Virus record (IMG/VR): IMGVR_UViG_3300005663_000124
Location: 1 to 37,314 of that record
Source: a virus
Length of the DNA stretch: 37,314 bases
Direction: 5' to 3' (one strand)
Under the pieces are notes generated by a model. It did not search any database. It had not been told where the DNA came from and saw only the letters and a program-made list of their open reading frames with translations. Both the position numbers and the translations under genes were made by a program. Positions 8,187 through 10,463 of this stretch are shown one piece after another. How positions within the stretch are numbered: the first letter of the stretch is position 1; the number at the start of each line of letters is the position of its first letter.

Positions 8187-10463
8187 TCACCTAAAGAGGT
8201 TTTGCTGATTAACACTATTATTATGTACACCAAGCGATTTATCTTTCGTGTTTAAGTGAAACCATTGCGCTAACTGCATAAAGGCGTCTGCGGCGTGTGA
8301 GTTACTAGTAACAACGCCCGACTCAGACAGTACGTATGCGTGGTGATGTTCGACTTCTATATCATATACAGTTTCTGCTGGCTGTCTTTTCACGCTTAAT
8401 ACGCGCGGCAAGATTACTTGCTTCTCTGAGTTGTTTCTTATTTGCTTCGCTTCCCCCCCACAGATTCGTTTTTCCGTGATGCTTAGCATGGTCTGATGGG
8501 GTAAGTAACTCAAGATTTTCGACAGCATTGTTAGCTTTATTATGATCGATATGATGAATGACGAGACCTTCGGGTATATTGCCGTTATGATACTCCCATA
8601 CGTACCTGTGCATATACTGCGTTGTGCCTGTAGACTTTGATGCGTAGTACCATGTTTTGGGTATGCAGCGAAACATAATCCCGTTGAACCGTTGTCCATC
8701 ATGTATGGCCTCAAACTCTCTGCCATTCTTAGCATGCAGCCTGCAAATCCAGTTATCCTCCGAAAAATCATCCCAATCTCCGTTAACAGGTACAACTGCG
8801 TACGCTGAAGGGATCTCCGCATTTCTGCTCTCCCACAGAACCCTATGGAGCATCTTGAACTTTCCTCCAATCTGACTGACGTACATCCCTCTATTTTTCC
8901 AGAATCGGTATCTAACTCCTCGAAACTCTCTATAAATGCCCTTCTTATCCCTCTGCTGTCTGCTGACCATTTTACTGCCTCTTCGTTTGTGAATAAGACC
9001 ATTCCTGGCGTCACATTACATGCTTCGACAAGACCGTCAGACGTAAAGATCTTGTGCCTTAAACTACACCTAACAATAACACGATTGGGCAGTTGCAACA
9101 AGATTATATCTTGTTTACCAACAGATTGCGCCCTGACAACTTTCGGGGTTAGTCCTCCTATTGACACTCTATCTCCAGCGGAGAATTTATCAACAGCTTT
9201 GGGGCCATTTGGTGTATCTATTAATGTGCCCTTGGGAAGACAAGCCCAGTCATGTACGGGAGCACTATAAGTTTGACTTCTTTCATTATATTCAGCATGA
9301 TATTGTTGTAGACAAGTAATACCATATTCACAATTTGCTGCATGGAAATAACAACGACTAAAAACAAATCTTGCTTGCTCAATTGCATTTTGTTTATGAT
9401 CAATCTTGGGAACAATTTTAAATCGAAGTCCTAACTCAAAAGCTAATTGTTGTACGCTTTTTTTAAGCTTAACATCTTCATTCGCACCATCATGGGGTGC
9501 CCAATGTTCACCGTAAACAATTCCATTCTTATCTCGAAAGTCTTTTACATGATTAACAAAATGTGAAATTTCAATATTTGAGTTTTCATAAAAAGAAATC
9601 AATCTGATTTGATTACCACAAAATTGTACAAACCAAATTGAAGTTGCGTCTAACCCTAAATCCCAATAAGTACTCACCGGAAGTGAAGTGTCAATTGGAA
9701 AATCTAAAATACGTTTTTGATCATAGGCAACTTTTAGTTGACGTGCAAAATAAGCGCCAGGAACAGCGGCCAGGAAAGAGCAATTATATTCTTGGTCGAT
9801 CATATTGTCTGACATTCCGCTATTTCTATCCTCCTCAATTTCTTGGGGCGATATAAGTGGTTTACCATCATGATCAAAAGTATCTTTTACAGTCAAAATT
9901 CTGGAAAACCACTTAGGATTATTAATATTTTTTTTATAAAGCTGATAAAAATGATTCTGACCAAAGGGAGTGGAAATAAATGCCGCACTGCCGTTATTCT
10001 TGGTTAAAATCGGACGTACAATATCCCATGTTCGGGGGTTTTGTTGAGAATATTCTGAAAAGGTAACATGTACCGGATTTAATCCGCGAAAATTTCCGTA
10101 CTTATCCGCTCCCATTAATTGGAAAACTGACCCATTCTTAAAATTAATTCTCATTTCGGTATTGTTGGGTGTCCCATCGATTAAATGGGGTGGGAAATAA
10201 TCCAGATATGGTTTACCCTCTTCATCCATTCCATTCCATATGACTTTACGTGCATTGGTTAGTGTGGGAAGGGTGTGCAGATAAGTTCCTATCCTTGATT
10301 GAGAGCCCGCAATGGCCAACGTTAACCAATTGATATCTTTTCCAGCTCGGCGATGCTGTATTTCTATAAAACGTTTGGTATTTTCTAGGAAATATTTTTT
10401 CCACACGACCATCTGGAATGGATAGGGATTAAAATCATAAGGATATAACGTTTTTACGAGCAT
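8187..10463 (-). CDS. terL: Terminase large subunit interrupted by an intein (758 aa precursor)
   Basis: DNA-packaging motor. N-terminal ATPase: Walker A-like HRRAGKD (residues 37-43), Walker B VHVTFSEYSQ (131-140), coupling motif region AAFISTPFG. C-terminal RNase H-fold nuclease: YWDLGLD (D268), APHDGANED, and the terminal SHAADAF (D726). The intein (residues 408-721) is inserted exactly between HDWA and SHAADAF; the spliced protein would be 444 residues, somewhat short compared with T7 gp19. Splicing is needed for activity because the catalytic motif is interrupted. ATG at 10463 has AAGGA 6 bases upstream. It follows the holin gene after 9 bases, at the distal end of the late operon. Confidence 0.93.
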   Translation of the reverse strand: MLVKTLYPYDFNPYPFQMVVWKKYFLENTKRFIEIQHRRAGKDINWLTLAIAGSQSRIGTYLHTLPTLTNARKVIWNGMDEEGKPYLDYFPPHLIDGTPNNTEMRINFKNGSVFQLMGADKYGNFRGLNPVHVTFSEYSQQNPRTWDIVRPILTKNNGSAAFISTPFGQNHFYQLYKKNINNPKWFSRILTVKDTFDHDGKPLISPQEIEEDRNSGMSDNMIDQEYNCSFLAAVPGAYFARQLKVAYDQKRILDFPIDTSLPVSTYWDLGLDATSIWFVQFCGNQIRLISFYENSNIEISHFVNHVKDFRDKNGIVYGEHWAPHDGANEDVKLKKSVQQLAFELGLRFKIVPKIDHKQNAIEQARFVFSRCYFHAANCEYGITCLQQYHAEYNERSQTYSAPVHDWACLPKGTLIDTPNGPKAVDKFSAGDRVSIGGLTPKVVRAQSVGKQDIILLQLPNRVIVRCSLRHKIFTSDGLVEACNVTPGMVLFTNEEAVKWSADSRGIRRAFIESFEELDTDSGKIEGCTSVRLEESSRCSIGFCGRAEMRRSLQRTQLYLLTEIGMIFRRITGFAGCMLRMAESLRPYMMDNGSTGLCFAAYPKHGTTHQSLQAQRSICTGTYGSIITAIYPKVSSFIISIIIKLTMLSKILSYLPHQTMLSITEKRICGGEAKQIRNNSEKQVILPRVLSVKRQPAETVYDIEVEHHHAYVLSESGVVTSNSHAADAFMQLAQWFHLNTKDKSLGVHNNSVNQQNLFR
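8301..9242 (-). mobile_element. Intein in terL (314 aa) with out-of-frame HNH gene inside
   Basis: In the terminase frame the intein runs from Cys408 (block A: CLPKGTLIDTPNGPKAVDKF) through block B (VRCSLRHKIFTSDG, His470) to block F (VYDIEVEHHHAYVLSESG) and the terminal Asn721, followed by Ser722 as the +1 nucleophile. The penultimate residue is Ser instead of the usual His. The 190 or so residues between blocks B and F (about 498-690) look like no endonuclease in this frame; the same DNA encodes an HNH enzyme in another frame. GC is visibly higher than outside: 58 of 120 bases at 8701-8820 against 23 of 60 at 10021-10080. Confidence 0.92.
8362..8970 (-). CDS. HNH homing endonuclease encoded out of frame inside the intein (202 aa)
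   Basis: The HNH core is GLVIHHIDHNKANNAVENLELLTPSDHAKHHG in two parts: HH at 139-140, N152, H161/H164-165; a C-terminal NUMOD-like helix region (GGSEANKKQLREASN) follows. The N-terminal half (residues about 16-85) repeats the architecture of the second half but with the HH replaced by VP, so it is a tandem with one decayed copy. ATG 8970 has GAGG 7 bases upstream. The frame is shifted by two bases (-1) relative to terL, and the gene spans exactly the gap between splicing blocks B and F. Presumably it cuts intein-less terL alleles to spread the element. Confidence 0.88.
   Translation of the reverse strand: MVSRQQRDKKGIYREFRGVRYRFWKNRGMYVSQIGGKFKMLHRVLWESRNAEIPSAYAVVPVNGDWDDFSEDNWICRLHAKNGREFEAIHDGQRFNGIMFRCIPKTWYYASKSTGTTQYMHRYVWEYHNGNIPEGLVIHHIDHNKANNAVENLELLTPSDHAKHHGKTNLWGGSEANKKQLREASNLAARIKREKTASRNCI

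Follow-up and report, generated by a model that had tools for sequence, protein, structure and literature searches.

We report a phage large-terminase gene (terL) interrupted, in the motif of the TerL nuclease domain, by what is very probably a mobile intein whose homing endonuclease is carried as a separate, overlapping gene. The window, a 37,314-bp virus record, holds terL as one minus-strand ORF of 758 codons (Table 1). In the mechanism that we propose, ribosomes translating terL would read through the HNH region as a meaningless linker of about 185 residues, around which the N- and C-terminal Hint halves would assemble to splice out the intein and leave a 444-aa TerL. A second initiation at ATG 8970, with GAGG upstream, would yield a free 202-aa I-HmuI-like HNH enzyme, whose cut in inteinless terL, close to the insertion point, would be repaired by copying the intein and the HNH gene into the recipient. 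Splicing, translation of the HNH and cleavage by it are inferences without experimental support, while mobility of such an element is seen in a genome comparison involving a relative. Because the HNH would act as a separate protein, selection is expected to fall on that protein, with the intein frame merely kept free of stops.

Table 1. Features of the interrupted terL gene and of the HNH gene nested in its intein (positions in the window)
Feature	Position	Strand	Evidence
terL (large terminase) precursor ORF, 758 aa	8187..10463	minus	Terminase_6N 5.7e-06
TerL N-extein, residues 1-407	9243..10463	minus	Terminase_6N; inteinless phage TerLs align up to residue ~407
Intein, 314 aa, Cys408 to Asn721	8301..9242	minus	Intein_splicing, Hint_2 (Pfam), intein_Cterm (NCBIfam); junction codons TGT...AAC/TCA
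N-terminal splicing half (blocks A, B), intein residues 1-92	8967..9242	minus	pLDDT 90-98; gp41-1 and DnaB profiles; Foldseek
In-frame linker, intein residues 93-277	8412..8966	minus	No recognisable domain; low-confidence structure; overlaps HNH gene
C-terminal splicing half (blocks F, G), intein residues 278-314	8301..8411	minus	pLDDT 79-98; intein_Cterm 9.8e-05
TerL C-extein (Ser722 to Arg758) and stop codon	8187..8300	minus	SHAADAF extends TerL nuclease motif
Putative HNH homing endonuclease gene, 202 aa, -1 frame relative to terL	8362..8970	minus	HNH_3 3.8e-23
HNH catalytic domain, residues 90-165 (IHHIDHNKANN...H161)	8476..8703	minus	pLDDT 87-97; I-HmuI by profile and fold
Shine-Dalgarno-like GAGG, 7 nt before HNH ATG	8978..8981	minus	Position relative to ATG 8970

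A preliminary description of this locus had proposed a terL intein running from Cys408 to Asn721 and followed by Ser, within the interval 8362-9242. The intein is present, with splicing-family matches in both halves, and it does start at 9242, but 8362 is the stop of the HNH gene and the intein itself ends at 8301. It carries the residues expected of an intein, namely a nucleophile at residue 1, the block B His, the C-terminal Asn and Ser (TCA) at +1, and its two halves together form a Hint fold. In an alignment of 61 inteins, C1, H63 and N314 are the sole invariant positions; the penultimate residue of the window intein is Ser, where His is usual. An AlphaFold model based on this 61-row alignment is confident for residues 1-92 and about 278-314, which adopt the Hint fold, while the linker mostly scores at pLDDT 40-60, with one stretch near 80. 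Foldseek matched the model to gp41-1 (E 1.6e-5), DnaB and RecA mini-inteins, and profile searches with the N-terminal splicing half also found gp41-1 and DnaB inteins. Pfam and profile searches detected no nuclease domain in the linker, so the window does not have an intein with an in-frame endonuclease; nor does it have the two host ORFs of a split intein or fractured gene, terL being a single 758-aa ORF. A search for related loci with the complete TerL of the window gave no match, nor did blastn of its intein against phages; as far as these searches reach, the window therefore has no close relative.

The second component, an HNH gene in the -1 frame with its own ATG at 8970 and a GAGG, was also as first described. 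Its ORF ends at 8362 and belongs to an open stretch (9015..8362) that contains no start codon before this ATG. Motif and fold both place the product among HNH_3/I-HmuI-type enzymes, I-HmuI being the top structural hit in the PDB and the sole one by sequence, and its alignment with relatives has H121, H139, H140, D142, N147, N148, N152, L153 and H161 as invariant HNH residues. The closest relative reaches only 47% identity over 98 columns. The N-terminal half of the protein (8703-8929, minus strand) is a degenerate duplicate of the catalytic C-terminal half, with an alignment score of 72 against a maximum of 47 in shuffles.

The early observation that both frames stay free of stops over some 203 codons, one of them encoding a long linker without a domain, also holds (202-aa HNH ORF, linker of about 185 residues). 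When synonymous codons were permuted with the HNH protein fixed, the intein frame acquired 3.5 stops on average and none in only 0.6% of draws; with the codon usage of the phage, these values became 5.3 stops and 0.065%. In the reverse test, in which the codons of the intein frame were permuted, the HNH frame stayed open in 0.03% of cases. The two overlapping open frames of the window are thus more than a product of chance. Third-position G+C is 0.47 in the HNH gene and 0.37 in the N-intein, above the 0.23 of the other genes of the phage, suggesting that HNH and intein arrived recently from elsewhere.

The preliminary description had further predicted constraint on the HNH frame and nothing beyond stop avoidance in the linker frame, a pattern borne out by relatives. 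Across 45 sequence-disjoint pairs, we scored every substitution by its effect in both frames, a counting approach rather than a likelihood model. Omega for the HNH was 0.322 (95% interval, 0.249-0.388) for genes in the -1 frame and 0.245 (0.206-0.282) for those in +1, and for the linker 1.007 (0.861-1.125) and 1.058 (0.923-1.207), respectively. By this count, the HNH frame is under purifying selection and the linker amino acids are neutral; the result covers the class and not the window's own HNH, which is divergent and has no close relative. The intein frame contains no stop in 179 nested genes, against about 681 expected. The expectation per gene is 2.25 stops in -1 and 9.6 in +1, and the -1 frame would be the commoner one because the coding sequence of the HNH is expected to produce fewer stops there. 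In 31 non-nested HNH genes, free-standing or between split halves, stops occur in both other frames at close to the expected number, and free-standing relatives beside terL accordingly give no indication of stop avoidance.

Searches with the HNH found the same nested layout in two metagenomic contigs with different TerLs (L005 and L006), while tblastn against GenBank phages added nested cases in Tetrasphaera phage TJE1, Acinetobacter phage Highwayman, Rhodobacteraceae phage LS06-2018-MD07 and one human-gut phage. No HNH CDS is annotated in the GenBank records of TJE1, Highwayman and LS06-2018-MD07. A profile search of IMG/VR contributed 80 further HNH loci. Both intein halves are present in 67 of the 68 hosts that nest an HNH, the window included; L061, which has an open frame over its HNH and no intein, was excluded. 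N-exteins of nesting hosts belong to Terminase_6N (36/61) or Terminase_3 (22/61), and L118 has its intein at the exact site of the window's (HDWS/C...N/SHYADVF), again with a -1 HNH. A genome collection, whose contigs were scanned with a splice-junction pattern, held nested cases in an Omnitrophota MAG, in a second MAG and in Glycomyces amatae, where the N part lies off the contig.

For a sample blind to the HNH, the only criterion for picking contigs was DNA encoding the C-terminal splice junction of TerL, HN/C(x)DALRY; this gave at least 198 phage contigs, a sample and not a census. Among the matches listed, 178 of 198 contigs have an in-frame N-intein, and 166 of these carry an out-of-frame HNH (111 in -1, 55 in +1), three an in-frame one and nine none. 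Deduplication at 95% identity left 120 inteins, again among the matches listed: 107 have the HNH out of frame (75 in -1, the commonest frame, and 32 in +1), two have it in frame and 11 were scored as having none. Two of these 11, L143 and L172, were mis-delimited and do carry an out-of-frame HNH. Within this sampling, an out-of-frame HNH is the common arrangement for inteins at the TerL nuclease site, in many unrelated phages.

Side by side with these, a few rare TerL inteins hold the same HNH family in the intein frame (L211, L215, L196). Another, at the same site, lacks the HNH (L120, 413 aa) and resembles an intein with an in-frame endonuclease in size and sequence, and five (L223, L262, L287, L171, L241) contain internally shortened HNH remnants, apparently intermediates of decay. 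Neither the breadth of the class nor the occurrence of the same HNH family free-standing beside terL and between split-intein halves could be seen from the window alone.

The same parts occur in other states. Loaded inteins such as L193 can be aligned with the HNH-less mini-intein L151 apart from a single insertion of 468 bp, and L184 is the HNH-less twin of the split L214. A split TerL with the HNH between the intein halves is found in L214, L257/L305, L298, L188 and L297, and also in L317, L320 and L034. The split cases include prophages of Leuconostoc falkenbergense and Megasphaera cerevisiae, and matching signals appear in Lactobacillus phage CL2. In L230 and L198, a split TerL intein encloses a long insert, and no HNH was found between the halves on the same strand. 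All but one of 34 non-nested HNH relatives adjoin terL, 19 of the 33 without a detected intein and 14 in loci with intein signals, mostly a split TerL. In the HNH tree, free-standing genes are scattered among nested ones; well-supported branches force at least seven changes, and support at depth is weak. As to origin, we suppose that an HNH gene associated with terL, complete with start and stop, moved into a small intein lacking an endonuclease. This invasion is inferred because HNH-less twins and free-standing relatives exist, and so from distribution only, the HNH tree being weak at depth. Since an in-frame stop would truncate TerL, an HNH gene that brings its own stop would have to occupy a different frame in any intein that stays continuous; if the other frame failed to remain open, the gene would split, leaving a split intein with the HNH between its halves.

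Recent movement is visible in Highwayman. Matches to its terL N-extein, at 84-100%, occur in 42 Acinetobacter phage records, and 41 records from other phages, with terL 84-99% identical, lack the intein and its HNH; searched in phage records, the DNA of this intein is present in Highwayman alone. Compared with the inteinless Acba_21, the spliced terL has the same length, 1302 bp, and differs at 15 positions. All of these fall within -163..+12 around the insertion point, leaving the first 1050 bp identical, a clustering with an approximate chance of 1e-11. The +1 codon is TTA (Leu) in Acba_21 and TGC (Cys) in Highwayman, with the intein. Differences confined to the flanks of the insertion point to co-conversion of the kind left by homing, and we read this tract as the expected trace of a recent homing event. 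The HNH is the only endonuclease recognized in the Highwayman intein, while the enzyme responsible for the event is not shown.

Could the layout instead be an error? Sequencing or assembly frameshifts in an ordinary intein with an in-frame HNH might mimic it, and the few relatives with the HNH in frame (L211/L215 and L196) would fit. Such homologs, and frameshift errors seen on resequencing, had been named in the preliminary description as findings that would refute a nested gene; the homologs are rare (2 of 120 clusters among the matches listed), and we hold that neither refuter applies. In the window, however, two compensating indels would be needed, and the HNH begins and ends with codons of its own; the linker frame is free of stops yet neutral; and more than 100 independent contigs share the -1 layout, as do the GenBank phages TJE1, Highwayman and LS06-2018-MD07. 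At the level of the class, these comparisons have already refuted the artefact, and we give it practically no credence. It is quite unlikely, too, that the HNH ORF is an untranslated relic with both frames open by chance. Decay does occur, as a truncated or absent HNH in some relatives (L223, L262, L287) attests, and there are no RNA or protein data, but omega for the HNH is 0.25-0.32 over the 45 pairs, the window retains an intact HNH motif and start, and homing in Highwayman was recent. Our inference that the HNH is translated from its own start competes with programmed frameshifting, which would make it as an N-intein-HNH fusion with no separate start. About half of the nested genes do lack a clear Shine-Dalgarno sequence, and in most cases the HNH frame already runs open for several codons ahead of the start. 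We nevertheless consider frameshifting unlikely: Shine-Dalgarno matches of at least 4 nt occur in 48% of nested genes vs 24% of control windows, start codons are enriched as well, both the -1 and the +1 frame are in use, relatives exist as stand-alone genes, and slippery heptamers in the right frame, at 10/140 vs 10/135 in controls, give no frameshifting signal.

The remaining alternatives concern function. The position of the HNH, next to terL in 33 of 34 non-nested relatives, would suit a protein that assists the terminase in packaging, of the HK97 gp74 or GVE2 HNH type, and nucleases of the HNH kind encoded between terL and portal can indeed serve in packaging (PMC12724721; PMC10448857). 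Yet those proteins belong to a Pfam family other than the HNH_3 of the window, for which sequence searches point to a single solved relative, the homing enzyme I-HmuI; 41 Acinetobacter phage records do without intein and HNH; and the Highwayman insertion is flanked by a conversion tract. A packaging rather than a homing role is accordingly rather improbable. Still harder to credit is an insert that is never removed and that TerL tolerates, as proposed for the ShiLan methylase insertion. There are no splicing data and the penultimate residue is Ser in place of His, but the Hint fold is complete, its three key residues are invariant in 61 inteins, the insert lies across the catalytic nuclease motif of an enzyme that is essential, and in Highwayman the +1 residue became Cys on insertion. 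An intein that is spliced out and nests a separately translated homing endonuclease remains our reading.

In textbook inteins, the homing endonuclease is a domain of the intein polypeptide (e.g., PI-SceI and mycobacteriophage TerL inteins). The window likewise joins a Hint splicing domain and a homing endonuclease in one mobile element at a conserved motif, but as two overlapping genes instead of one polypeptide. Fractured genes, in which a stand-alone endonuclease lies between the halves of a split intein, were reportedly described by Dassa et al. in 2009; some of our relatives are built exactly so, with an HNH, whereas the window keeps its host frame intact, with the HNH gene overlapping it. 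The TerL inteins reported from mycobacteriophages have their sites in the ATPase domain (PMC5050341), unlike that of the window in the nuclease-domain motif. Group I introns with HNH ORFs (I-HmuI, I-TevIII) also come with an HNH_3/I-HmuI-type enzyme encoded apart from the splicing element, whereas here this element is a protein that requires translation through the endonuclease gene. By analogy, the nested HNH intein may parallel the association of introns with HEGs and collaborative homing, which involves free-standing HEGs with introns (PMC10448857), with a protein as the splicing element. The nearest published case is the ShiLan element, published in 2025, an out-of-frame HNH in a phage methylase gene (PMC11855218). 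Like the window, it places the HNH out of frame in a phage gene that is interrupted yet stays open, and its patchy distribution likewise suggests homing. ShiLan has no splicing motifs and no Shine-Dalgarno sequence, and its insert is thought to be retained in the methylase; in the window, an intein with Hint fold and splicing residues surrounds the HNH, and the host gene is essential. Our literature search found no continuous intein with an overlapping endonuclease gene; it did not cover a preprint by Gosselin et al. (2025) on inteins of non-canonical architecture in actinobacteriophages, which may hold related cases.

Inteins at the TerL nuclease site probably form a large, undescribed class whose endonuclease normally overlaps in -1 or +1, in which selection on an unrelated selfish gene would keep a neutral linker in an essential protein free of stops and in which mini, nested and split forms may interconvert through entry of the HNH. 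The usual layout at one of the most conserved phage genes would then be an overlapping gene overlooked by standard annotation. Inteinless terL, mini-intein, nested intein, split intein and free-standing HNH provide natural before-and-after states, making the association of an endonuclease gene with a splicing element directly testable. The class also offers a large natural set of overlapping genes with one frame constrained and the other neutral apart from stops, and it can be mined for new split and mini inteins. In Klebsiella phages KLPN1 and relatives (hits H60-H73), HNH matches coincide with records that carry two annotations, HNH endonuclease and head morphogenesis or minor capsid protein, which possibly marks a further overlap.
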